Source of the DNA: Devosia sp. YIM 151766 | GTDB taxonomy: Bacteria > Pseudomonadota > Alphaproteobacteria > Rhizobiales > Devosiaceae | Assembly (NCBI RefSeq): GCF_030285925.1 | Contig: NZ_CP127251.1 | Coordinates: 2,294,001 to 2,358,000 of the forward strand | DNA length: 64,000 nt | Reading direction: 5' to 3' | In this document: positions 1,620-59,074 of the stretch, piece after piece | Layout: each line of letters begins with the position of its first letter | Position numbering within the stretch: the first letter of the stretch is position 1 | Made by a program: the position numbers and the translations under genes | Notes under the pieces: model-generated | What the model saw: the letters and a program-made list of their open reading frames with translations, nothing else | Told to the model about the DNA's origin: nothing | Database searches by the model: none

Positions 1620-3548
1620 CTACGACAAGATATTGCCTAGCAGCCAAATCACCGATGCCACAAAGCCCAGATAGATGGCGGTGCGTAGAAATGCCCTAGT
1701 TTTGGAGAACCGCACGGATTGCGCCGTGGCGCTTACGCTTGCATCAATGGTTTTGGGCATTGCTCGATTGGCTTTTCGTCCTTGGACTTTCTGTTGGGCG
1801 CAAGCTTCGTCCATAATCGCTCTGATGAGCGATATGGGTTCGGCGTGGTCACGATGTGGATCGAACAGACCTTTGAACTTTGGGTCCGTGAAGTACATCG
1901 TGCGTTTGAGGGCCAGGGGCTGCAGGCCTGATGTTATAGCCAGCATGGCAGGGTTTTCGCGGTTTCCGAACAAGCGCCCGACTTCATCGGGGTTGAGCAA
2001 GTTACGTTTGTGGAATGTCTCCGTCGTGCCCTCAGTATGGCTTTCATTGCTGCCGTGACTAACATTTTGTGATCTGCCGTTCGACCATCCATGTGTAACG
2101 CTGCTGGATGAGCCAAAGCTCATGCTCAAATGCTCGCCATTCATGCCCATGCTGGAAGACGACCCTTGTGTCACGCTGCCGTATTTGCCGGAATGGGTGC
2201 CGTGACCCTCACTATGTGATGTGCCTTGCGTGTCACTTTCAGTTTTTCCCCAGCGGCGGACTTCCAACTCGCCCATGAGTTTGGAGGCATATTGGCGGGT
2301 AAAATGATCATCGTTGCCGAAGAAGAGTTTTAGTCCAGCGTTAGCAACCAAGGTTTCCCAGTTGTCTTTGTAGATGTCTTTGAGTTGGGCAAGGGTTTGC
2401 GCGACGAACATCAGCTTGACGCCGTAGCCTGCAATTTGAGCGGCAGCGTTTTCAATAACTTTCATGCGCCGTAGGGCTGGGAACTCATCCAGCACCATAA
2501 GCACCTGGTGTTCGGGTGTGGGCCTTGGGCGCGTGCGTTCCATCTCGCCCAATACCAGCGTGGTCATCATGCGTAGCCAACGGTAGTGGCTCTCCATGTA
2601 ACGCTGTGGCAAGCACAGATAGAGCGTAGTGGGCTTGTGCTTTAAATCAGCCAGTTGGAAGCTGGACGATTGCAAGCAACCGCGCAGCATGGGGCTCTCC
2701 AAAAACTCGGTATTCGTGCGAGCCACCTGTAGCACCGACATTAATGTGCGGGGCGAGGCTTCCAGCAATTCGGCGTACATGGCACCCGCATTGGCGATGA
2801 AACCATCATAGGCACTATTGCGTTGCATGGTCTGGAATAGAAGGCTCATGCCCGTGGGGGCATCCTCGGCATCATTCATCACCATTAGGCGGCGCATTTC
2901 GTCGTCACCCGCGAGCAGAATATAGCGAAGTGTAATCAGATTGCGTTTTTCTGGCGGGAACTCAGGCCAGCTGGCGACGTGTAGCAACAGGGCTTTGATG
3001 ACGCCCTTGGCAGAGTCATCAAAGAAGGGCTCGCGGGAATCTTCTGAGACGATCAACGCATCAGCCATGCGGGCGGCGTCATCGACGGCATCCCGCGCGT
3101 TGGCCTGCAAAAGATCCAGCGGATTGTAGGATGCCCGCAAATCGGCAAAATCGTCATGCCGTGTGGTGGTTTCGCCGAAGGGGTCGAGGATATGCACGGA
3201 TTGGCCCATGCCCAATGACCATTGCGATCCGCCCGCACGGCGTCTGGCCGTCACCATGGCGTTTTCACCTTTGGGGTCGATGACTACGACGGACCCAGGC
3301 CATAGGCACAGATTAGGGATGATGACGGATGCGCCTTTGCCGGAGCGCGTGCCACTGACAACCAGAACGTGACGGTCATCGCGGTAGCCTACCGGTTCAT
3401 CTGAAGGTAGACGAGAAAGCCAGAAATCACCGTCTTTGAAAATCGGCTTATTGTCGTTTTCAAAGACGAGCCAGTCCGCCGTTCCCAGTGGTATGAAAGT
3501 GTTATCAAGCCCATCATCATCGGAGGGCAGAGGAAGATTCAAAGACAT
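1620..3548 (-). CDS. VirD4/TraG-type conjugal coupling protein
   Basis: A 642-residue type IV coupling ATPase that would link the relaxase-DNA complex to a type IV secretion channel. Walker A is SGTRSGKGAS at about residues 65-74, followed by VVVIDPKGEN, the motif typical of VirD4/TraG; Walker B-like VLMVLDEFPAL lies further on. Classical VirD4 has two N-terminal membrane helices. None is visible here. Instead a single hydrophobic stretch sits at the extreme C-terminus (about residues 623-641). Residues about 440-514 are a low-complexity Ser/Gly/His-rich linker. It lies 11 nt downstream of the relaxase gene on the same strand, so it is probably the last gene of a mobilisation operon. No type IV secretion genes are present in the window, so transfer would need a helper. 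Confidence 0.9.
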   Translation of the reverse strand: MSLNLPLPSDDDGLDNTFIPLGTADWLVFENDNKPIFKDGDFWLSRLPSDEPVGYRDDRHVLVVSGTRSGKGASVIIPNLCLWPGSVVVIDPKGENAMVTARRRAGGSQWSLGMGQSVHILDPFGETTTRHDDFADLRASYNPLDLLQANARDAVDDAARMADALIVSEDSREPFFDDSAKGVIKALLLHVASWPEFPPEKRNLITLRYILLAGDDEMRRLMVMNDAEDAPTGMSLLFQTMQRNSAYDGFIANAGAMYAELLEASPRTLMSVLQVARTNTEFLESPMLRGCLQSSSFQLADLKHKPTTLYLCLPQRYMESHYRWLRMMTTLVLGEMERTRPRPTPEHQVLMVLDEFPALRRMKVIENAAAQIAGYGVKLMFVAQTLAQLKDIYKDNWETLVANAGLKLFFGNDDHFTRQYASKLMGELEVRRWGKTESDTQGTSHSEGHGTHSGKYGSVTQGSSSSMGMNGEHLSMSFGSSSSVTHGWSNGRSQNVSHGSNESHTEGTTETFHKRNLLNPDEVGRLFGNRENPAMLAITSGLQPLALKRTMYFTDPKFKGLFDPHRDHAEPISLIRAIMDEACAQQKVQGRKANRAMPKTIDASVSATAQSVRFSKTRAFLRTAIYLGFVASVIWLLGNILS

Positions 3549-3559
3549 TATTCGCCTCC

Positions 3560-4846
3560 CTACAGGCTGAAATCTGCGCCGCGACTTGGCTGGCGCGAGC
3601 GGGATGGATGGGGTTCCGGCGTATGTTCGGGCTTGCGTGTTAGACGCAGCATCTCTCCCACCTTGCCCGCGAGGGTTTGGCGTTCCTGCCGTTGTCGGGC
3701 AGTCAGGGCGGCATAGAGTTTGTGCAGCGTGGCGGTGTCGGCGGATTGCGATTTGAACAGCGCTTCGCGTTGCGCGCGGTCACGTAGAAAACCTTGATAG
3801 GCTTCTTGTTCGTTGCGTTTTTTGATGGCAGAGGCGCGACCGATGATGATGTCCAAAAGGCCTTTGATGCCCGTGCGCAAGCGTGCGCTACGTTCTTTTG
3901 TTTCGGTATCCCAACGGCGTTCTTGGCCGCGTAAGAGCATGTCCCGTTCCATACGGTGACGGATGACGAGCTGCTGGCGTTTTTGCCGTATGGGCTGCAA
4001 AGCCGCTTGTTGTTCGGTGCGCACCGTCTTGAGGTGGTCGCGCAGGCGGGCGGAGATACGCTTATGCGTATCGGCTTTCGCTTCATTCACGCTGGGCAGT
4101 GTATTGGGGCTGCCTAGACGCGCCTGAAGCTCTTTCGTTTTGACGCCGGCCATTCTCGAGACGGAGTAAACCTCGCCATGAATATCAGTGGCGACGAAAC
4201 CACGCTGATCACCACGGGCCAGGAAATAGCCGCGATCTTCCAAAGCGGCTTTGAAGCTGGGGAGATTGTCGGAGCGTTCCCACGCATCGCGGAACACCAG
4301 CTTGGTTTCGCGGGGGTCGAGATCGAGTCGTTTGGCTTGCTGCCATTCCGCCAGCGTGAAATTGAGAGGGTTTTTCCAGCCGTTTTCGCGGTGGCCGTCT
4401 GGTAGGTTCCAGCCATGTTCGAGAAACAGGGATTTGGATAGGTCGTTCAGGCGGGTTTTAAAGAAGGCCATGTTGATGGCCTTCATTTCCTGACCGTCGA
4501 TGCGCGACCACACGACATGAGCGTGGCGGCGACCGTTCTTCTCATGCACCACCAGGGCGCGGGGCTGGCCGATCAGGCCAAGCTTGGCTTCGGCTTGGTC
4601 AGCGGCACGGGTTAAGTCATCGAGGCTAGCATTCGTATCTTTTGGTGGATTGAGGCTGAGCGAAAACAGGAATTGTTTGCAGTTCGTGCCCAGCGACACG
4701 GCGTGCGCTTCTTCGAGCGCGCCGTGCAAATCCCGTGCGGTGAAGCCGCGTAGGTCTTGCACGGTCACATAGTCGTTTTCTTTGTCATTGAGCAAGTGGC
4801 GGGCAAGGTTGCCCGCACCGCCACGCTGGGAGCCAACCAAAATCAT
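3560..4846 (-). CDS. MobA/VirD2-type relaxase
   Basis: A 428-residue relaxase that should nick oriT and attach to the 5' end through a tyrosine. The N-terminal half carries a three-His metal motif: H101 in VVHEKNGRR, then H108 and H110 in RRHAHVVWSRID, as in the PF03432 relaxase family. Downstream is 'FFKTRLNDLSKSLFLEHGW', also typical of that family. The C-terminal third (from about residue 260) is charged, Arg/Gln-rich and probably coiled coil. It overlaps the upstream MobC-like gene by 4 bp (ATGA) and is followed at 11 nt by the coupling protein, giving a compact mobC-relaxase-T4CP operon. Confidence 0.88.
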   Translation of the reverse strand: MILVGSQRGGAGNLARHLLNDKENDYVTVQDLRGFTARDLHGALEEAHAVSLGTNCKQFLFSLSLNPPKDTNASLDDLTRAADQAEAKLGLIGQPRALVVHEKNGRRHAHVVWSRIDGQEMKAINMAFFKTRLNDLSKSLFLEHGWNLPDGHRENGWKNPLNFTLAEWQQAKRLDLDPRETKLVFRDAWERSDNLPSFKAALEDRGYFLARGDQRGFVATDIHGEVYSVSRMAGVKTKELQARLGSPNTLPSVNEAKADTHKRISARLRDHLKTVRTEQQAALQPIRQKRQQLVIRHRMERDMLLRGQERRWDTETKERSARLRTGIKGLLDIIIGRASAIKKRNEQEAYQGFLRDRAQREALFKSQSADTATLHKLYAALTARQRQERQTLAGKVGEMLRLTRKPEHTPEPHPSRSRQPSRGADFSL

Positions 4847-46415: not shown

Positions 46416-47372
46416 ATGAACACCGAAGGCTATCGCGTTCTCTGCCTGTGGGATGTCACGCTGTTTCCATCGGTGCTCGACCAGCTCAAAGCGGTCGCTC
46501 AGGTTGATATTCATCCGCCTGATCGGGAACTGGTAGCCGCAATTATCGGCAACTACGACGCCATTCTGGTGGCGCTCAGCGTGCCATTGGACCGCGAGCT
46601 CATCGCTCTGGCCACCAGAATGAAGACTGTCGTTACCCCAAGCACGGGGCTGGATCATCTCGACCTCGCAGCGCTTTCGGAGCGCGGCATTGCGGTGCAG
46701 AGTATAAAGGTCGAGTACGACCTGCTCGATCAGGTTTCAGCCACAGCCGAACTGGCTTGGGCGCTCCTCCTGGCCGCGTCACGCAAGCTACCTGCAGCCC
46801 ACAATGCCGCCCTTGAGGGACGATGGGCCAGAGACGAATTTCGGGGCACCCAGATACGCGGCAAGACCGTTGGCATAGTCGGCGTTGGGCGTCTGGGCGC
46901 AATGATGGCCCGCTACGCACAGGCATTTGGCCTGCAAGTCCTGGGATGCGACCCCGCCCCGCGCCTTACGCTGGATTTCGTGGACTATGTTGACCTCGAC
47001 ACCCTGCTGGCACGCGCCGACATCATCAGCCTCCATGTCCATCTCAACGAAAGCACACGGCATCTGCTGGACCGCGCGGCCTTTTCGCGCATGAAAGAAG
47101 GGGTGACGCTTATCAATACCAGTCGTGGGGGCCTGATTGATGAGGCTGCGCTCGTCGAGGCTCTGGAGAGTGGCAAGGTAGGAGCGGCGGGCCTTGATGT
47201 GATCGACGGCGAATGGCGCACCGATCTTGACCAGCACCCGTTGATAAAGCTGGCACAGCAGCATCCGGGCGTCGTCATAAGCCCGCATATCGGCGGAGTG
47301 ACCCTTGAATCGCAGTCCATAACCCTGAAATTCTCGGCCGACCGCTTGGCGCGCAGTCTAGCTGCCGGATAG
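46416..47372 (+). CDS. D-isomer-specific 2-hydroxyacid dehydrogenase
   Basis: A 318-residue NAD-dependent dehydrogenase. The Rossmann motif is GIVGVGRLGAMMARYAQAFG. The catalytic Arg is in LINTSRGGLIDEAALVEAL, and the His in VISPHIGGVTLESQ. The likely substrates are 2-keto acids or D-2-hydroxy acids such as hydroxypyruvate, glyoxylate, tartronate semialdehyde or D-lactate. It is the last gene of the plus-strand operon. Confidence 0.92.
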   Translation: MNTEGYRVLCLWDVTLFPSVLDQLKAVAQVDIHPPDRELVAAIIGNYDAILVALSVPLDRELIALATRMKTVVTPSTGLDHLDLAALSERGIAVQSIKVEYDLLDQVSATAELAWALLLAASRKLPAAHNAALEGRWARDEFRGTQIRGKTVGIVGVGRLGAMMARYAQAFGLQVLGCDPAPRLTLDFVDYVDLDTLLARADIISLHVHLNESTRHLLDRAAFSRMKEGVTLINTSRGGLIDEAALVEALESGKVGAAGLDVIDGEWRTDLDQHPLIKLAQQHPGVVISPHIGGVTLESQSITLKFSADRLARSLAAG

Positions 47373-48255
47373 AGGGTCGATAGATCCCAAATTTTTAGGC
47401 CGAGACCCAAAAGGGCGGGAGGTGGTCCCGTTTGAGCTTACCTCCGACACTAAGGCCAACTTACTCTCCGGGCTTGAATGTTGAGGTGGCAGTTCGATCA
47501 CTTTGCCTTCCCAAGACACGTCGCAGTGAGTGCTACTTTTGGGATAATGGAGGCAGGATCGACCGGCGCGAAGGTGGCCGCCACCAAAAGTTGACTGTCG
47601 GCTACCGGCCCCAAAGAGGCCCTTGATGCCGTCGGACTCGGAGGATGTCGGCTTTCGTTCGACGATCACCAAAAGCGGACAGGCTGCTGCCGGCCCCGAA
47701 TCTGCCGTTCGTAGAGTAGTGAATGAATGGCAAGTTTCAGGCGATGGGGAAACCACACGAAACGGCGACAATGGGTCGAAAGCAGAACAGCATCGGGACA
47801 GTAAACCGATCAAAACGACACATTTCACAAGCACCCAAGCAAAGACCAGCGATAGTTCGACTCCAGCTCCATCAGCAACCGAACGCGACGGGAATCGAAC
47901 ATCGGAAATGCGCCGCCAAGAACCCTTATGTTTCAATGGTCTACACGGCTATTCACTAAAATGGCTTAGTCATCAGGTCCAGAGAATAAGGGGCGGGAGA
48001 GCGCACGTTCGAGCATCCTGGCGATTGAGCCAGTGTTCAGCCCCATCGCTATAACCCCTCGAAAACAACAAGAAATCCGGCCGCAGGCGGATCGGGAGAA
48101 CACTTTCGCGGAGGCAAGTGGCGGGCCGAAGCCGACGAAACAGAGAACTACACCTACGCTATACCCCTCCAAAATGAAACCTGAAAATCACATTTAACTA
48201 CTTGAAGCAATGAGGATTTTTATCCTGCGATTCGTACAAAAACCTCTGTAGATGA
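47373..48255. other. Gene-free stretch of about 880 bases
   Basis: Two overlapping long frames on opposite strands (47358-47936 minus, 47623-48054 plus) are present, but neither has a ribosome-binding site or a family resemblance. Two imperfect copies of a segment beginning CACCAAAAG and including CCGGCCCC lie about 86 nt apart (about 47582 and 47668). The stretch separates the sugar locus from the defence-like operon and may be a decayed gene or an old junction. Confidence 0.5.
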
Positions 48256-49869
48256 TCATGCAGCGTCAATGTCAGATTTGAGAGTCCCGAACAGTGCCTG
48301 AAGTTCGACGAGGGCTTCGGGATCGTCCATCAGCATTTTTCGCACGGAGTTTTCGTACTGGGTTCTCCCTTGAAAACCGAGCTTGATTGCGATCTCGCGA
48401 AGGGCCGGCGTCTCACGCACAGGATATTTCGCGATTATCATGCTGAGATCGCCATCGTCGCATGCTTGTGTTAGGCGCGCGACCTCTTCCGCAACAACTG
48501 TTGGTACATCAATCGTAATCTCAATCGGCTGCGCTTCCGCGATATCTGAGCGCTTCGGCAGTTTGCTCATCAACTGCTGCCGAACAGACGCTTCTATCAC
48601 CCGCTCAGAGAGACGTTGAATGTGTGATCGAACAGCGTTGATCGCCGCAACCTTAGCCTGCTCAAGCAATTGGTTCGTATCTGCCCCTGTCATCTCGTTT
48701 TGACGAGCCGCAAGGCGTTCAAGAACCAAGGTGTTATAATAAATGGACTCAACAGCGAAGACAGATACCGCGTAAACACCTTTTGCTTTTAGTTCGGCAA
48801 TTGTCTCTTCCGGTCGACGGTCGTTATCTACAATTCCAAACGCTCTCAGCCAGTGCAGTTCATGCGCGTCCCTGATGCTGGATACTGCATGCTCAACATC
48901 GCGGCAGGTGGACTTGGGGATCACCGACACCTGAGGAAATAGAAGACTATAGAGAGGCAGGTCTAAGCTGGCTTCGGTGCCTTCGATGAAGAGCAGCTTT
49001 CGGCGGTTGCCGAGAACGTCCTGCTTCAACTGATCATCAATCTCACCGTCCGCGTCCAGCAGGTCGGCATCCCAATTCACGACATTCGACTCTCGGTACG
49101 TGCAGCCACGGATCAGGAGTGTTCTAGCTTCGCGATTATCTAGAGGAAGCATCACATCGTGCGTGGAGATGACAAACGCGCAATCTACCCGTTTTGAGAA
49201 AAGTAGTGTTAGCAGCGGTGATATGATTGACCGATGCAGGTGCCGCTCTGGTTCATCAATGAATAGGATTGATCCAGGCTTGCACGTTAGGACGTTTGCT
49301 GCGATCAGAAGCGCGTTTCGCTCCCCATCCGAGAGTTCGGATATACTATATTTCGTTCCCCCGTTTCGTGATGCCATGACCTGTTCGGATTCTTGAACGG
49401 ATATCTCCACAGGGATGTTCGAGAGGCGGAGAAGTTCATTTATGATCTTGATGGGGGCGTCTTTCTTCGACAGCGCCAACGCAAGATCCATATCCTTGTC
49501 GTCTACAGCTCCCGCTATTGAACGCGCCCTTACATTTTCAGCGTCAATTAGGTCATATATTGCGACGCTCGCTCTCTGTGCAGAATAGTCATCCTTCCAG
49601 CGCGAATGTGGGTTCGCATCATCATTTAAAATATACGTCTCTGTATTCTTCTTTTCATGCGCTGAAAGGGTTAGAGCATTTGATTGAAACCAAGTCTGGC
49701 GATGCGCTGAAATTCGTCGGCCATTTTTCCGATGTTGAGAGTAGAATTGTTGGAGTAAACTGGATTTACCTGTGCCATTCGCTCCAAGCACATATAATGC
49801 CTGCCCAACGTCGACACTGAAGTTAATTGCTTCCCCAAGCGGCAAAGGCACAGAAAAATCGAACGCCAT
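48256..49869 (-). CDS. ABC/OLD-type ATPase with DUF4435-like C-terminal domain (PARIS-like fusion)
   Basis: A 537-residue protein. The ATPase half has Walker A LGANGTGKSSLL (about residues 28-39), an ABC-type signature in SISELSDGERNALLIA, Walker B SILFIDEPERHLH and an H-loop in FVISTHDVML. From about residue 310 it reads KLLFIEGTEASLDLPLYSLL, then AFGIVDNDRRPEE and VYAVSVFAVESIYYN, which fits DUF4435, a TOPRIM-related domain with an acidic metal site. In the PARIS anti-phage system the same two modules are AriA (ATPase) and AriB (DUF4435), sometimes fused. The last gene of a four-gene operon. The family link is by motif only. Confidence 0.7.
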   Translation of the reverse strand: MAFDFSVPLPLGEAINFSVDVGQALYVLGANGTGKSSLLQQFYSQHRKNGRRISAHRQTWFQSNALTLSAHEKKNTETYILNDDANPHSRWKDDYSAQRASVAIYDLIDAENVRARSIAGAVDDKDMDLALALSKKDAPIKIINELLRLSNIPVEISVQESEQVMASRNGGTKYSISELSDGERNALLIAANVLTCKPGSILFIDEPERHLHRSIISPLLTLLFSKRVDCAFVISTHDVMLPLDNREARTLLIRGCTYRESNVVNWDADLLDADGEIDDQLKQDVLGNRRKLLFIEGTEASLDLPLYSLLFPQVSVIPKSTCRDVEHAVSSIRDAHELHWLRAFGIVDNDRRPEETIAELKAKGVYAVSVFAVESIYYNTLVLERLAARQNEMTGADTNQLLEQAKVAAINAVRSHIQRLSERVIEASVRQQLMSKLPKRSDIAEAQPIEITIDVPTVVAEEVARLTQACDDGDLSMIIAKYPVRETPALREIAIKLGFQGRTQYENSVRKMLMDDPEALVELQALFGTLKSDIDAA

Positions 49870-49941
49870 CTTGCAACACCCCCAGCTTCAAATCGCTACC
49901 ATCTAGGATAGCTCTCGACAAACTTATCCATCGATTTTCAT

Positions 49942-50781
49942 CTAGTGTCCGAGGATGGTCTGCATCTTGCTTTGCAACGTAGCAGCTAGAGCACCGCGCC
50001 CTTCGGCATTGTTAAGGTAACGGACATGGCGAAGGTGCCGCAGATCGAACGGAATGTCGTGCTCGCTCTGCGTGATGAGAATCACCTCACGCCCAAGCGT
50101 GTGCGCAATGCCCGCCTCATAGAACACGTTTGGGTTTCTGCCGGTGCAGTCGCATACGACGACGCGCGAACGGTCGATGAGGGAGACCACGTCCTGAATG
50201 ATTGCCGGGTTCTCCCAAATGTCGTCCGCCCGCCTGCAACGAAGGCCAGCATTGCCAGCGCCAAGTTGGATGGCAGCATAAACATCATTGAAGCCCGCAT
50301 CGAACGGCATCATCACTGATGCTAAGGCAGGCTCGATGTTTTCATGTTCGGGGATTTGAAACACGGCCGGGCGCTGGCGGCGGGGGCGCACGTTGCGGAG
50401 TAAGAATCTATAGAGGTCAACGTCCTTCACCGCCCAGTGATTTCGTGAAAACTCGAATTCGTGGGGCATGTGCAACTCTGCACGGTTCGCGTGAATCATG
50501 CTGTTCTGAAGCGGTGGCACCTCCGCGTCGAAGCCGACTTCAAGAGACACATCCCTGCCGACAATGCGCGCACGGTTGATCTGACCGATATAAGCGGTTT
50601 CGTCGGTCGTGCCTTCTTCGCAGAACAAGCACGGCAAAGCGGTGAGACGATCTAGAAGAGGGTTGCCGCCTTCGCGAAACTGCTCGGTGATGTGGTCATC
50701 CGTGTATTCAAACATCCGCCCCATAGGGACGGTGACTCTGCCCGAGGGCCAATCGACGTTGAACATCAAGAGATTAAACAT
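49942..50781 (-). CDS. Protein with nucleoside 2-deoxyribosyltransferase-like domain
   Basis: About 279 residues. The C-terminal ~125 residues read SVMMPFDAGFNDVYAAIQLG, then DIWENPAIIQDVVSLIDRSRVVVCD, CTGRNPNVFYEAGIAHTLG and REVILITQ, the layout of nucleoside 2-deoxyribosyltransferase-like folds, where the Glu of YEAGIA is catalytic. Relatives in defence operons act on nucleotides or NAD+, or sense them. The N-terminal ~150 residues are an unfamiliar domain. I chose the ATG at 50781, preceded by GGGGGAG; a TTG at 50796 is possible. It lies 66 nt after the TIR-like gene. Confidence 0.7.
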   Translation of the reverse strand: MFNLLMFNVDWPSGRVTVPMGRMFEYTDDHITEQFREGGNPLLDRLTALPCLFCEEGTTDETAYIGQINRARIVGRDVSLEVGFDAEVPPLQNSMIHANRAELHMPHEFEFSRNHWAVKDVDLYRFLLRNVRPRRQRPAVFQIPEHENIEPALASVMMPFDAGFNDVYAAIQLGAGNAGLRCRRADDIWENPAIIQDVVSLIDRSRVVVCDCTGRNPNVFYEAGIAHTLGREVILITQSEHDIPFDLRHLRHVRYLNNAEGRGALAATLQSKMQTILGH

Positions 50782-50847
50782 TGCTCCCCCAAGCAATTTG
50801 GAATGGGCCTAGCTTCCGCGCTTCTTGTAGGGGCCTGCCTCATCCAA

Positions 50848-51342
50848 TCAGCTTGCATCGAACTGAGTATAATGCCTAGCGCCACCGTTTCTATCGGTAT
50901 AGCTGAGCCGGCTAAACTCGCTCGGCCAGTTAGCCATCGCGTGCTTCAATGCAGAAAGCTTATATGGGATGTGAACGACACAGCCCTTGTCGCGAATGAT
51001 TGCGGGACATCTGTTGCTATCTTGTCGATTTGTTTCATTCAAATTTGCCGCAATGATCGGCAGGCCAAGCTCAAGGGCAAGCTCCAATTCCCATCGCACA
51101 TACTTGTATAGATTTTTTGTTTTTTCACCTACCAAGACAACAACAGCAGACGAATGCCTCATCCTCTCGCGCAGCTTCGATTTGACGTATTGCTCATCTT
51201 GTGCGCGGCCTGTCATTGTGTCCAGATCGTGCGCATTTTGATACGTGAAATCTATATTTCTATTGGCCTTCCAGCCGTTCATGTAGGCATACGCCCATTT
51301 ATCATTGTCGCCGTCAAATACGACATAAGCAGCGCCAGACAT
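50848..51342 (-). CDS. TIR-like (DUF1863/ThsB-type) protein
   Basis: A 164-residue protein with the MTH538/DUF1863 flavodoxin-like TIR fold: YVVFDGDNDKWAYAYMNGWK at the start, KLRERMRHSSAVVVLVGEKTK in the middle and YVRWELELALELGLPIIAAN near residues 81-100. The Glu of the WELELAL segment (E85 or E87) is at the place of the catalytic Glu of NAD+-processing TIR proteins such as ThsB of Thoeris. No SIR2/ThsA partner is present; the neighbour is a membrane protein 10 nt upstream. It probably makes a nucleotide signal or consumes NAD+. Confidence 0.78.
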   Translation of the reverse strand: MSGAAYVVFDGDNDKWAYAYMNGWKANRNIDFTYQNAHDLDTMTGRAQDEQYVKSKLRERMRHSSAVVVLVGEKTKNLYKYVRWELELALELGLPIIAANLNETNRQDSNRCPAIIRDKGCVVHIPYKLSALKHAMANWPSEFSRLSYTDRNGGARHYTQFDAS

Positions 51343-51352
51343 TTATTCCCCC

Positions 51353-52222
51353 TCAGTCCGATTGCCTTGCAAGCCACAAGGTATGTTCTCTTGAAAATGC
51401 TTTTTCCGCATCATTCACAAATTCCGAGAACTGTTCATCAGATCTCATGTCGTCTGTTAGTGCTTTAATCAAGCCGATTTCATGTGCGGTTACTGTGTAA
51501 GCGGCAGATAGCTCATTAAACTTTTTAATTTGCATCCAGCCTACGATGGAAGCTGCGACGACAATGAGCGGCTCGATTGGCCAATATTGCCAACTTGGCA
51601 AAGCGATACGACTTAAGGCCATCGAACCCGCGATGACGTAACAGGCACCACTTATCCATACCCACATCCGGGAAGCATTGCGATTGGCCTTGGATTTCCG
51701 CCTATACCAGCTCCGCTGATCCTCGACACGATTCTTTAGATAATACGCCATTCTGTCTTCGCGGGTTTTAACTCGCACGGCGTCCATGGCCCGGGTGATT
51801 TGGTCATTTCCAGACCAATCGTCCGTGATGCGTTTCGCGGTTTCTATGTTTTCGCGAAAAATTGTATTCAGTTGGCCTCGAAACTGCGTCCTTGCTTGTG
51901 CATCTTCTCCCTCGAAAGGTGCGGCGTGCATCATATACCGCCAAGTCAATGTTTTGACGCTTTCAGCTAATGCGCGGCATCTATACCACCACTGCTCCGG
52001 TTTACTGTGCGCGCGAGCAATGAGGATGACTAATCCAACAACGAAAACTCCCGCGTAAAGCACGTAGTAGATGATATCATTCATGAAGCTCATGGAAAAT
52101 ATCGCTGCAAAAAACAACGCAATGTATTCGCCACGAATTAGCCGCAGAAACGTTCTTTGATACATATTGGAAGCGTTGTCTGCGTCTAGAAATAGCGCAG
52201 GGAAATCGTCGTGATTCATCAT
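51353..52222 (-). CDS. Four-helix membrane protein of the DUF4231/SLATT type
   Basis: About 289 residues with membrane segments at roughly residues 32-48, 50-69, 187-206 and 214-232 and a helical, charged middle part. RSWYRRKSKANRNASRMWVW before the third helix is the usual DUF4231 pattern. SLATT-type proteins are predicted pore-forming effectors coupled to nucleotide-signalling defence systems. The ATG at 52222 (or 52219) follows GGGAGGGG; the frame is open to 52384 but that part is upstream non-coding sequence. It is the first gene of the operon, 10 nt before the TIR-like gene. Confidence 0.75.
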   Translation of the reverse strand: MMNHDDFPALFLDADNASNMYQRTFLRLIRGEYIALFFAAIFSMSFMNDIIYYVLYAGVFVVGLVILIARAHSKPEQWWYRCRALAESVKTLTWRYMMHAAPFEGEDAQARTQFRGQLNTIFRENIETAKRITDDWSGNDQITRAMDAVRVKTREDRMAYYLKNRVEDQRSWYRRKSKANRNASRMWVWISGACYVIAGSMALSRIALPSWQYWPIEPLIVVAASIVGWMQIKKFNELSAAYTVTAHEIGLIKALTDDMRSDEQFSEFVNDAEKAFSREHTLWLARQSD

Positions 52223-52413
52223 GCCCCTCCCGTCATCGTCGCAAATATTATTGTTGCGTCCTGCACGGAGAAGCAAGCGCCATCGCGACAGTGCCCTAGA
52301 AATGCCAGAATATTCTGGCCCCACATTTCCCAAGTAAGGCGCTGATTTCGCTGTCCTGACCATTATATTTCCTATATAAAACATGGTGTTGAAGGCTGCG
52401 AGGGGCGCGTTTC

Positions 52414-53769
52414 ATGGATCACCCAGAGGGTGCGGGCTTGCAACGGGCAGATCGTGTGGATTTCGACCCTCGCGTGCGGCTGGAATTTCGCGGCACGCAG
52501 CTCAGTTCCGACGGCGGCCTTCTGGTGATGCGCGAGCTTGATGACGCGCTCGGGTTGTCCGATTTGGCGTCAGCGGCGCTGCGCGATACTCGCTCTGGCA
52601 AGAACACGGTCCATCGGCTCGACGGCCTGTTCCGGCAATCAGTCTTTGGGCGGCTGGCCGGATACGAGGATGTCAACGACGCCAACCGTCTCGCCTGCGA
52701 TCCGGTCATGCGCCAAGTTGTCGGCGGCAGAGCGGTCGATGCACAAGCGGCCTCGGCATCGCAGATGGGACGGTTCGAGACCGAGACGCTGGCTCTGGCC
52801 GGGAACCGTGCCGCGCTGGCCGACCTGAACGGGCAATGGATCGACCGGTTCCATGACCGTAACGGGCTGAAGTACATCGTTCTGGACATGGACAGCTCGG
52901 TCAGCCCGACCCATGGCGACCAGGAAGGGTCCGCCTGGAATGGCCATTTCGACTGTAGCTGCTATCACCCCAACTTTCTGTTCAACCAGTTCGGGATGCT
53001 GGAACGCTGCGCCCTGCGCCATGGCAACGTCCACAGCGCCGATGGCTGGCGTGATGTTCTCGACCCCGTCATTGCGCGCTACGCGGAGCGCGACCTTGGT
53101 GGCAGGTTCTTCCGGGCCGATGCTGCCTACGCGATCCCGGCGATCTATGAGCGATTGGAAGAAGCGCGGTTCTTCTACGCCATCCGGCTGCCCGCAAACG
53201 CGGTCCTCAAGGACAAGATCGCGCATCGGCTAACGCGCCCTGTCGGGCGGCCGTCACTGACCAAGGTCAAGCGGTTCTTCGAGGAATTCGAGTATCAGGC
53301 GGCGTCCTGGGACAAGGAACGCCGGGTGATCGCCAAGATCGAATGGCATCCGGGCGAACTGTTCCCGCGTGTCGGCTTCATCGTCACCAACCTGCCGATG
53401 GAGCCGGACTGGGTGGTGCGGTTCTACAACCAGCGCGGCACCGCCGAGCAGCACATCAAAGAGGGCAAATACGCCTTTCGCTGGACGCGGCTGTCGTGCC
53501 GGAAGTTCCGCGACAATGAGGTGCGGCTGCAACTGCACGCCCTGGCGTACAACCTGGCCACCTTCTTGCACTGCATCGAGCTGCCCGAGGCCATGGCCGA
53601 CTGGTCGTTGACCAGCCTGCAACTGAAGCTGATCAAGATCGGGGCACGTGTGGTCCGTCACGCCCGCACCATCACCTTCCAGCTGGCCGAGGTCGCTGTC
53701 ACCGGCACGATGGTACGCGCCATCCTCGCCGCTATCCGCCGATTGCGAGCGCCACCGCTATGCGCATGA
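52414..53769 (+). CDS. IS1380-family transposase
   Basis: A 451-residue DDE transposase. The segments LSSDGGLLVMRELDDALGLS, YIVLDMDSSVSPTHGDQEGS (first Asp), FFRADAAYAIPAIYERLE (second Asp) and NQRGTAEQHIKEGKYAFRW (Glu) are typical of IS1380. The gene appears intact. The element ends could not be fixed: a match to inverted repeats was not found before sul2, so the right end may be lost. IS1380-type elements (for example ISEcp1) can carry along adjacent DNA and its resistance genes. Confidence 0.9.
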   Translation: MDHPEGAGLQRADRVDFDPRVRLEFRGTQLSSDGGLLVMRELDDALGLSDLASAALRDTRSGKNTVHRLDGLFRQSVFGRLAGYEDVNDANRLACDPVMRQVVGGRAVDAQAASASQMGRFETETLALAGNRAALADLNGQWIDRFHDRNGLKYIVLDMDSSVSPTHGDQEGSAWNGHFDCSCYHPNFLFNQFGMLERCALRHGNVHSADGWRDVLDPVIARYAERDLGGRFFRADAAYAIPAIYERLEEARFFYAIRLPANAVLKDKIAHRLTRPVGRPSLTKVKRFFEEFEYQAASWDKERRVIAKIEWHPGELFPRVGFIVTNLPMEPDWVVRFYNQRGTAEQHIKEGKYAFRWTRLSCRKFRDNEVRLQLHALAYNLATFLHCIELPEAMADWSLTSLQLKLIKIGARVVRHARTITFQLAEVAVTGTMVRAILAAIRRLRAPPLCA

Positions 53770-54030
53770 TCGCGATCCACGCTCAAACTGAACGAAAGCG
53801 GCTGGACAGATCTGTCCGCTGCGCTGAAAAACGCCGCCCCTGGGCAAGGAAACAGCGGCTTCGCGGTCTGATCCGTCCAGATCCAGCAGTCTGCGCGACC
53901 GCAGGTGCCGCTTGCGGCAGAAAATCCTTGTCTAGCGCTCGGATACAGGCGATCTTCACCTCAAACGACACGCCACTTGGGGAATGCAGGATGAGACTCA
54001 TGCTCGATTATTATTATTATAGAAGCCCCC

Positions 54031-54846
54031 ATGAATAAATCGCTCATCATTTTCGGCATCGTCAACATAACCTCGGACAGTTTCTCCGATGGAGGCCGGT
54101 ATCTGGCGCCAGACGCAGCCATTGCGCAGGCGCGTAAGCTGATGGCCGAGGGGGCAGATGTGATCGACCTCGGTCCGGCATCCAGCAATCCCGACGCCGC
54201 GCCTGTTTCGTCCGACACAGAAATCGCGCGTATCGCGCCGGTGCTGGACGCGCTCAAGGCAGATGGCATTCCCGTCTCGCTCGACAGTTATCAACCCGCG
54301 ACGCAAGCCTATGCCTTGTCGCGTGGTGTGGCCTATCTCAATGATATTCGCGGTTTTCCAGACGCTGCGTTCTATCCGCAATTGGCGAAATCATCTGCCA
54401 AACTCGTCGTTATGCATTCGGTGCAAGACGGGCAGGCAGATCGGCGCGAGGCACCCGCTGGCGACATCATGGATCACATTGCGGCGTTCTTTGACGCGCG
54501 CATCGCGGCGCTGACGGGTGCCGGTATCAAACGCAACCGCCTTGTCCTTGATCCCGGCATGGGGTTTTTTCTGGGGGCTGCTCCCGAAACCTCGCTCTCG
54601 GTGCTGGCGCGGTTCGATGAATTGCGGCTGCGCTTCGATTTGCCGGTGCTTCTGTCTGTTTCGCGCAAATCCTTTCTGCGCGCGCTCACAGGCCGTGGTC
54701 CGGGGGATGTCGGGGCCGCGACACTCGCTGCAGAGCTTGCCGCCGCCGCAGGTGGAGCTGACTTCATCCGCACACACGAGCCGCGCCCCTTGCGCGACGG
54801 GCTGGCGGTATTGGCGGCGCTGAAAGAAACCGCAAGAATTCGTTAA
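54031..54846 (+). CDS. sul2: Sulfonamide-resistant dihydropteroate synthase Sul2
   Basis: A 271-residue protein starting MNKSLIIFGIVNITSDSFSD, recognised as Sul2. It performs the dihydropteroate synthase step of folate synthesis but binds sulfonamides poorly. Family motifs are VNITSDSFSDGG, LGPASSNPDA and DPGMGFFLG. Length is exactly that of the usual Sul2. As in other settings it is followed by a stub of glmM. Upstream is an IS1380-type transposase; no ISCR2 was recognised in the window. This is the only antibiotic resistance gene seen here. Confidence 0.96.
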   Translation: MNKSLIIFGIVNITSDSFSDGGRYLAPDAAIAQARKLMAEGADVIDLGPASSNPDAAPVSSDTEIARIAPVLDALKADGIPVSLDSYQPATQAYALSRGVAYLNDIRGFPDAAFYPQLAKSSAKLVVMHSVQDGQADRREAPAGDIMDHIAAFFDARIAALTGAGIKRNRLVLDPGMGFFLGAAPETSLSVLARFDELRLRFDLPVLLSVSRKSFLRALTGRGPGDVGAATLAAELAAAAGGADFIRTHEPRPLRDGLAVLAALKETARIR

Positions 54847-54932: not shown

Positions 54933-55104
54933 ATGGTGCGCAAATATTTCGGCACAGACGGTATTCGTGGCAAAGCCAACGAAGGCGCGATGACGGCGGA
55001 AACCGCCTTGCGCGTCGGCATGGCGGCTGGCCGTGTCTTTCGTCGCGGTGACCACCGCCATCGTGTCGTGATCGGCAAGGATACGCGCCTGTCGGGCTAT
55101 ATGC
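54933..55104 (+). pseudogene. glmM: glmM, 5' fragment
   Basis: The frame starts [20 protein letters not shown] and reaches [14 protein letters not shown], the first ~57 residues of phosphoglucosamine mutase. After about 55104 the protein no longer follows the family, and the frame ends at 55232. The catalytic Ser region is missing. This stub is a known companion of sul2 and marks the edge of the captured segment. Confidence 0.88.
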
Positions 55105-55450
55105 TCTGGCATGTCCATCCCTCCACGCTTCCGTGTCGGGGCATTGTCATTGACTGCCCTCCGGCTCTCTACAGCTACAGCGCAATGTGGAAGCCCATTC
55201 GCCTCCGGGCCGGCGCGGCTGCCGCCGCGTGACCATCAACAAATTTGCTAAGGGCCTTGCCCTCGCGCCAGCAAGGTAAGTGAAACCGTCCGGGGCGGTA
55301 TCCCCAGCCTTCCGCGCTTCGCTTGTGCAGACCGGGTGATCCCCCTCCACCCCGGCCGCCCTTGCTCGTTGCTACCCCAGTCTCGGCGACGGCCAGAAGG
55401 TCAGGCGCGGCGTTCCGCTTCGCTGACCTTCAGACCCGAGGAACAGAGAC
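55105..55450. other. Leader region upstream of ardA
   Basis: After the glmM stub there is no gene for about 345 nt. The stretch is rich in GC hairpins, including GGTCAG (55399-55404) and CTGACC (55423-55428). It appears to be the native upstream region of the ardA backbone, fused to the sul2 segment at about 55104. Confidence 0.4.
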
Positions 55451-57997: not shown

Positions 57998-59074
57998 ATG
58001 CTGCGCGAGGACGATCACGACCCCGCGCGGCCGGCCGAGGACAGCGAGCGCAGCCGCCTCGACCCCTTCGTGGTCGCAACGGGCGACGCGCCGCCCCGCG
58101 ACCAGCGCGATTTGATGGAACGGCCGTTTTTCTCGCTGGCGAAGACCCCGCGCACCAAGCCGATTCTCTACAAGGCCGCCGACATAGAGGTGCAAGTGTT
58201 CGGGATGCCCGAGCACGGCATGGCGACCATCTGGGATGCCGATGTGCTGATATGGGCGGCCTCGCAGATCGTCGCGGCCGAAAACAACGGCCTCACCACC
58301 TCGCGCTTCGTCCGGTTCACGCCTTATCATCTGTTGCGCGCCATCGGGCGGCCGACCGGCAATCACCAATACCGGCTTCTGAAAGCCGCGCTGGCGCGGC
58401 TGCAATCGACCGTCATTGCCACCACGATCCGCAACGGCCCGCATTGGCGTCGCCGGCAATTCTCATGGATCAACGAGTGGGAGGAAATGACGACGCGCGC
58501 CGGCCGCGTCGAGGGCATGGAGTTCGTCCTGCCCGAATGGTTCTACAATAGCGTCATCGACCATTCGCTGGTCCTGACCATAGACCCGGCCTATTTCCGG
58601 CTGACTGGCGGCATCGAGCGATGGCTTTACCGCGTCGCTCGAAAGCACGCCGGGCACCAGCGCCACGGCTGGATTTTCGAGGTCGCGCACCTTCATCAGA
58701 AATCCGGCAGTCTCGCGCGGCCGTCCGACTTCGCGCTGGACCTGCGCCGGATAGCGGCCCGCCAGCCGCTCCCCGGTTATCGCCTCCAGATCGAGCGGGG
58801 AGACGGCCGCGAGCTGCTGCGTATCCGCCCCGAAAACTTATCAACAGGCACTGTTGATAACCCTGTTAATACCATCGGCACATCAGGCGCACGGGGTATC
58901 GGCACATCAGGCGCATCACTATCGGCAGATCAGGCGCACGAACCGCAGCTAACGCTTTGGCCTGAAAAGCGGAATCCGACCGCTAACTTATCTAACAGAG
59001 AATCTAACTCTTTTTCTTTGACGCGCGCGCAGGTGAAGCGTGGTGCCGGTTCTGCCCGGAGGAGCGAGCCATGA
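57998..59074 (+). CDS. repA: Replication initiator protein RepA
   Basis: A 358-residue protein of the plasmid RepA type (PF10134). It has DLMERPFFSLAKTPRTKPIL, WDADVLIWAASQIVAAEN, RFTPYHLLRAIGRPTGNHQY and GGIERWLYRVARKHAGHQRHGW, all usual for the family, which binds iterons and starts plasmid replication. The C-terminal ~70 residues (GTSGARGIGTSGAS...) are low complexity with Gly/Thr/Ser repeats. In relatives a parA gene often follows; here it does not. Confidence 0.88.
   Translation: MLREDDHDPARPAEDSERSRLDPFVVATGDAPPRDQRDLMERPFFSLAKTPRTKPILYKAADIEVQVFGMPEHGMATIWDADVLIWAASQIVAAENNGLTTSRFVRFTPYHLLRAIGRPTGNHQYRLLKAALARLQSTVIATTIRNGPHWRRRQFSWINEWEEMTTRAGRVEGMEFVLPEWFYNSVIDHSLVLTIDPAYFRLTGGIERWLYRVARKHAGHQRHGWIFEVAHLHQKSGSLARPSDFALDLRRIAARQPLPGYRLQIERGDGRELLRIRPENLSTGTVDNPVNTIGTSGARGIGTSGASLSADQAHEPQLTLWPEKRNPTANLSNRESNSFSLTRAQVKRGAGSARRSEP

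Follow-up and report, generated by a model that had tools for sequence, protein, structure and literature searches.

The described systems closest to this locus are Thoeris, the TIR-SLATT gene pairs of phages, and PARIS. In the part of PMC11204291 that deals with the subfamilies of 426 ThsB proteins, an active-site tyrosine beside the catalytic glutamate is reported in three subfamilies, which occur only with TM-macro ThsA; this Tyr class is there suggested to make histidine-ADPR and is linked to nucleotide-gated membrane effectors. SLATT proteins have been predicted to act as nucleotide-gated membrane pores (passages of PMC7159879 and PMC9503650), and in Firmicutes phages, according to a passage of PMC9503650, a TIR gene is conserved with a 2TM SLATT gene whose product is a predicted ADPr-regulated effector. 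TIR-SLATT neighbourhoods are, to that extent, already published. In the literature surveyed, nothing was found beyond that general TIR-SLATT statement to place SLATT with ThsB, and no description was found of SLATT with a Tyr-class ThsB, a statement that does not extend to the make-up of a 'Thoeris type III', named in PMC12390725 in a passage that leaves out its composition. A single-gene PARIS fusion is described in a passage of PMC9122126. The locus analysed here is, with a probability of about 0.7, a stack of three defence modules rather than one system; it divides into a Thoeris-like TIR-SLATT pair, an accessory nucleotide-glycosidase-like gene and a fused PARIS, because of how often the genes are found paired or alone.

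The four genes lie on the minus strand of a 64,000-nt stretch of the genome of Devosia sp. YIM 151766 (the window). They encode a SLATT_3-SLATT_1 membrane protein and predicted effector (51353-52222, 289 aa), a ThsB-type TIR protein, predicted to be an NAD+-using signal enzyme (50848-51342, 164 aa), a protein resembling nucleoside deoxyribosyltransferases (NDT-like; 49942-50781, 279 aa counted from ATG, with an alternative TTG start at 50796 that would add five residues), and an ATPase-DUF4435 fusion of the single-gene, AriAB type of PARIS (48256-49869, 537 aa). The reading frames of the first-pass annotation, and its gaps of 10, 66 and 72 nt from SLATT to ATPase, were reproduced, and a purine-rich stretch precedes the start codon of each gene. 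Scans of the locus for promoters and terminators gave results at chance level. The third-position GC of the NDT-like gene is 0.675, against 0.507-0.521 in the other three, a jump that is compatible with assembly from separate sources and by itself is no proof of it.

The IS1380-type transposase given earlier as one border is that of IS1247 (IS1380 family; plus strand, 52320-53996, ends approximate), as annotated in plasmid matches, with the transposase itself at 52414-53769 (Pfam DDE_Tnp_1_4, 1.5e-142). The element bounds the block, its end at about 52320 lying 98 nt from the SLATT start. The other border had been called gene-free; no convincing gene was seen at 47372-48256, a description that holds if a 192-aa minus-strand reading frame (47358-47936) is left out. 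Beyond IS1247, and adjoining it, is sul2 (54031-54846, and 54933-55232 with the next reading frame included), which plasmid matches identify as a sulfonamide-resistant dihydropteroate synthase, so that the defence block sits beside a mobile resistance gene. The start of the reading frame after sul2 presumably resembles a truncated glmM. Elsewhere in the window (1620-4846 and 58001-59074) are a conjugative coupling protein, a relaxase and an RPA-type replication initiator, which point to a plasmid origin of the region or to an integrated element.

Among 297 genomes of the order, a number that includes the window's own, 9 gave a match to SLATT, 7 to the TIR and 29 to the NDT-like gene, 2 of these over nearly its full length; at E<=1e-20 the ATPase matched in 11. 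No genome but the window's own held all four. A scan for SLATT with one genome per species gave 282 relatives, and the 80 best were fetched as loci; plasmid records were examined for 4 of 18 NDT-like, 3 of 28 ATPase and 5 of 76 SLATT matches, each with at least 80% coverage. The quartet was met again in L073, a metagenome-assembled contig labelled Caulobacteraceae, where the common block (48113-52396) is 99.977% identical over 4284 bp by blastn. Identity ends at 48113, beyond which the flank differs and leads into a tyrosine integrase, while the contig begins at 52396, about 77 nt inside IS1247. A near-identical block beside a different flank indicates that it moved recently as a whole. That L073 comes from the window's own species was considered and dropped, as the folP-like protein of its genome is clearly diverged from the second folP-like hit of the window genome. 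No diverged quartet was found in the 297 genomes, the best 80 of 282 SLATT relatives or the other fetched loci, and at 99.98% identity the L073 copy is not an independent case. Since the quartet recurs in the searched genomes and loci as one near-identical copy, it was ruled out as a conserved unit. The four genes may share transcription, being co-directional and closely spaced in a block that has moved whole at least once.

The ATPase-DUF4435 protein matches the PADLOC AriAB model (9.3e-57, residues 5-405), and both Pfam AAA_21 (3.5e-15, 57.3 against 27 bits) and DUF4435 (3.4e-8, 34.0 against 27 bits) exceed their cut-offs, which bears out its earlier assignment as an OLD/PARIS-type protein. 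In PARIS, the ATPase half keeps the TOPRIM-like half in check until infection supplies a trigger. The residues of the P-loop, of Walker B and of the TOPRIM-like part (G34, K35, D205, E206, E296, D348 and D350) are kept in 10 of 10 relatives, and those of the last kind we take to have a TOPRIM role. The gene is mostly solitary: judged by their own profiles, the other three were lacking from 29 of 30 ATPase loci (3 plasmids, 10 genomes and 17 viral contigs, the five weakest viral loci, L253-L257, being excluded), among which are small plasmids of E. coli, L013 for example, one of them of 5.3 kb. The exception, L247, has the NDT-like gene and is the same prophage contig as L169. At one locus (L014) a TIR-domain gene is annotated 575 nt upstream; it gave no match to the profiles used. 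Near SLATT, no ATPase was found at E<1e-10 in any of 79 loci (best 80 of 282, L073 excluded), and on synteny of this scale the ATPase was rejected as sensor for TIR-SLATT; weaker profile matches, of 3e-5 to 2e-9, occur in four SLATT loci (L075, L076, L077 and L136). The window genome also carries a second, PARIS-like pair with ATPase and DUF4435 in two genes (G000:C1:2424698-2427185, equivalent to L285:4699-7186).

These results bear directly on the first-pass annotation, which had proposed one four-gene system with the ATPase as sensor. Co-directional, closely spaced genes and the intact block beside a different flank in the second contig speak for such a system, but the near-identity of that copy, the failure to find any other quartet in the searches, and the solitary occurrence of the ATPase make it highly improbable. 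Of the checks then suggested, co-occurrence across genomes gave no independent quartet among the genomes and loci searched, and profile comparison matched the ATPase to fused PARIS, which is a single-gene system. The alternative offered at the time, two adjacent systems, came nearer as regards adjacency but counted two modules where three are seen. The defence reading and the domain assignments of the four proteins are supported by Pfam and PADLOC and, for the NDT-like protein, by its fold.

The TIR protein is, as first described, ThsB-like: it matches Pfam ThsB_TIR (9e-18, 65.0 bits against a cut-off of 21.2), PADLOC ThsB (3.1e-48) and, at 2.4e-16, PDB 8V6T, which a passage of PMC11204291 gives as E. 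coli ThsB2 (EcThsB2). Its Y6 and E85 align with Y8 and E89 of EcThsB2 (chain numbering offset by 3). Across 52 aligned ThsB-type TIRs, the window's included, the catalytic glutamate is invariant and the tyrosine is present in 44, with phenylalanine in the other 8; for distinct sequences the counts are 33 of 33 for Glu, 27 of 33 for Tyr and 6 of 33 for Phe. None of the four proteins contains a ThsA domain, either SIR2-SLOG or TM-macro, by Pfam, and the neighbour of ThsB is SLATT. That protein, too, had been correctly named as DUF4231/SLATT, matching Pfam SLATT_3 (3.5e-38), SLATT_1 (3.5e-35) and DUF4231 (1.4e-11), the first two above curated cut-offs (Pfam, NCBIfam). No PADLOC model matches it and Pfam finds no macro domain in it. 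AlphaFold2 predicts an all-helical fold (pLDDT 91, pTM 0.85), and in the hydropathy profile the N-terminal hydrophobic pair is clear and the C-terminal pair marginal.

The pairing of these two genes is the most regular feature of the neighbourhoods. In 69 of 79 loci (best 80 of 282, L073 excluded), no more than 300 nt separate SLATT from a co-directional TIR gene; with L073 counted, the figure is 70 of 80, corresponding to 45 of 53 clusters when grouped at 85% identity. The reading-frame caller gave 69 of 80, having missed the TIR of L139, which tblastn and Pfam recovered. The TIR gene may be upstream or downstream of SLATT, and in three of the plasmid records (Vibrio, E. coli and Serratia) it faces SLATT from the opposite strand. 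The gene ahead of SLATT encodes a TRAFs-binding/TPR-S protein in Agrobacterium (L003); in Rhizobium (L004) a gene of the same size stands there. A longer operon, L265:2287-7575, ends in or adjoins TIR-SLATT and comprises genes for a PfkB-like protein, a TIR_2 protein with a weak TGT-like match, an Ogg-type glycosylase, QueC, a ThsB-type TIR and SLATT. Similar sizes and order are seen in L112, L114, L115, L123, L144, L283 and L235, and by annotation in L003; domains were assigned with Pfam for L265, along with PfkB for L112, and elsewhere by gene size, order or annotation. In one case, L068, a ThsB-type TIR of the window's kind adjoins a true TM-macro ThsA, and for this reason SLATT seems to occupy the place of ThsA. 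This is the simplest reading, with the exchange of partners resting on that single macro-ThsA case.

The pair could also work the other way round, the TIR itself being a toxic NADase and SLATT its sensor or restraining partner. The two genes nearly touch, and some bacterial TIRs deplete NAD+ directly (as stated in a passage of PMC12847820), both of which suit this arrangement. It is nevertheless quite improbable, since the relevant passages of PMC11204291 report that EcThsB2, the closest solved relative, lacks NADase activity in vitro and tie its class to nucleotide-gated membrane effectors.

The NDT-like protein is less easily placed. AlphaFold2 and a fold search divide it into an N-domain of unknown fold (about residues 1-130) and a DNPH1/NDT/TIR-like C-domain (about 149-277), the latter matching the DNPH1/NDT-like fold. 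The earlier label, deoxyribosyltransferase-like, is favoured by this fold but misses the cut-off of Pfam PF05014 (E 0.15, 12.7 against 28.8 bits), so the assignment rests on the predicted fold; 35 of 38 relatives also match PF05014 weakly, at a best E of 4e-5. D197, Y221 and E222 are kept in 38 of 38 aligned relatives, and E222 and D197 presumably correspond to E104 and D80 of DNPH1. The family has many members, with 6645 relatives at E<=1e-10 (C-domain-only matches possibly among them), and none of the 120 of these matches that were listed carries a Pfam label. It occurs in prophages and plasmids, and its N-domain is elsewhere fused to TIR (L081, L286) or FRG (L287) domains. In L008:6001-7621, L163:1427-3110 and L165:791-2614 a full NDT-like gene adjoins one with the same C-domain and a different N-part, perhaps a paralogue.

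A division into two systems, a three-gene TIR-SLATT-NDT system, with the NDT-like protein as second nucleotide enzyme of the pathway, beside a fused PARIS, would account for the 8 SLATT loci out of 79 (best 80 of 282, L073 excluded), or 7 of 52 clusters, that have the NDT-like gene or its N-domain close by, where the ATPase has none at E<1e-10. It would fit, too, with the same-strand position of the gene or N-domain 9-110 nt after SLATT in L081, L082, L127 and L139, and with an NDT-like gene directly after a ThsB-type TIR in G457. This division is unlikely, given that 71 of the 79 SLATT loci lack the NDT-like gene, that it is on the opposite strand to SLATT in L087, and that L081 and L144 share its N-domain alone. 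Moreover, 25 of 27 loci found through the NDT-like gene have no SLATT, ThsB-type TIR or ATPase (excluding G306, which matches NDT residues 132-277 only, and 61 viral loci, L171-L231, without an N-domain match). Of the four-part unity first proposed, the quartet does not survive; what does, in weaker form, is that in several lineages this gene or its N-domain recurs close to SLATT, in most cases to TIR-SLATT. On the prophage contig L169 the NDT-like gene is upstream of the ATPase. In Halomonas (L082:7942-8632) the NDT-like gene that follows TIR-SLATT is cut short close to the contig end, after some 120 residues, apparently by an insertion element.

Beside the observed gene order, families, pairing, active-site residues and predicted folds, we infer the following biochemical steps for the three modules. 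The TIR probably detects infection and converts NAD+ to an adenine-nucleotide signal, perhaps histidine-ADP-ribose, judging by its active-site class; the signal would cause SLATT to permeabilise the inner membrane, halting the infected cell. The negative NADase result for EcThsB2 in vitro (PMC11204291) counts against this reading. The NDT-like protein is probably a one-gene effector in which the N-domain senses or regulates and the C-domain cleaves a nucleotide glycosidic bond; as it sometimes travels with TIR-SLATT, it may assist that pair. The PARIS module would answer a trigger of its own, its ATPase half restraining the TOPRIM-like half until then. The pairing of a Tyr-class ThsB with SLATT is the part of the locus worth following. 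It could be speculated, though the odds are against it, that SLATT_3-SLATT_1 is the receptor for a histidine-ADPR-type signal of Tyr-class ThsB, replacing macro-domain ThsA in a Thoeris subtype whose membrane effector escapes current models, and that the NDT-like protein is an optional third part, for instance a second effector or an enzyme acting on the signal by editing or clearing it, its N-domain being common to TIR and FRG effectors. If true, SLATT proteins would be linked to a specific upstream enzyme and to a candidate for the signal, open to immediate testing; Thoeris would gain another type of membrane effector, and orphan-looking ThsB genes a possible partner. The NDT-like family would merit attention for its size, its presence in prophages and plasmids and the swapping of its N-domain between effectors.

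Compared with known systems, the NDT-like protein differs from DNPH1 and the nucleoside 2-deoxyribosyltransferases in its extra N-domain and in scoring under the Pfam cut-off for the family, and a TIR-STING chain, at a score of 13.8, ties with them. The ATPase shows no difference in kind from the single-gene AriAB fusion of PARIS (as described in PMC9122126), having AAA and DUF4435 in one protein that usually occurs without the other three. With the TIR-SLATT pairs of Firmicutes phages, in the account given in PMC9503650, the locus shares a TIR gene with a 2TM SLATT gene, but it is proteobacterial, its TIR is of the ThsB2-like Tyr class and its SLATT is a SLATT_3-SLATT_1 fusion. Thoeris type II, in which ThsB is paired with TM-macro ThsA and the signal is histidine-ADPR, differs in its effector, that of the window being SLATT_3-SLATT_1 with no macro domain by Pfam, whereas the Tyr-Glu active site, the conserved tyrosine of the C-terminal tail and a membrane protein encoded next to a ThsB-type TIR are common to both.
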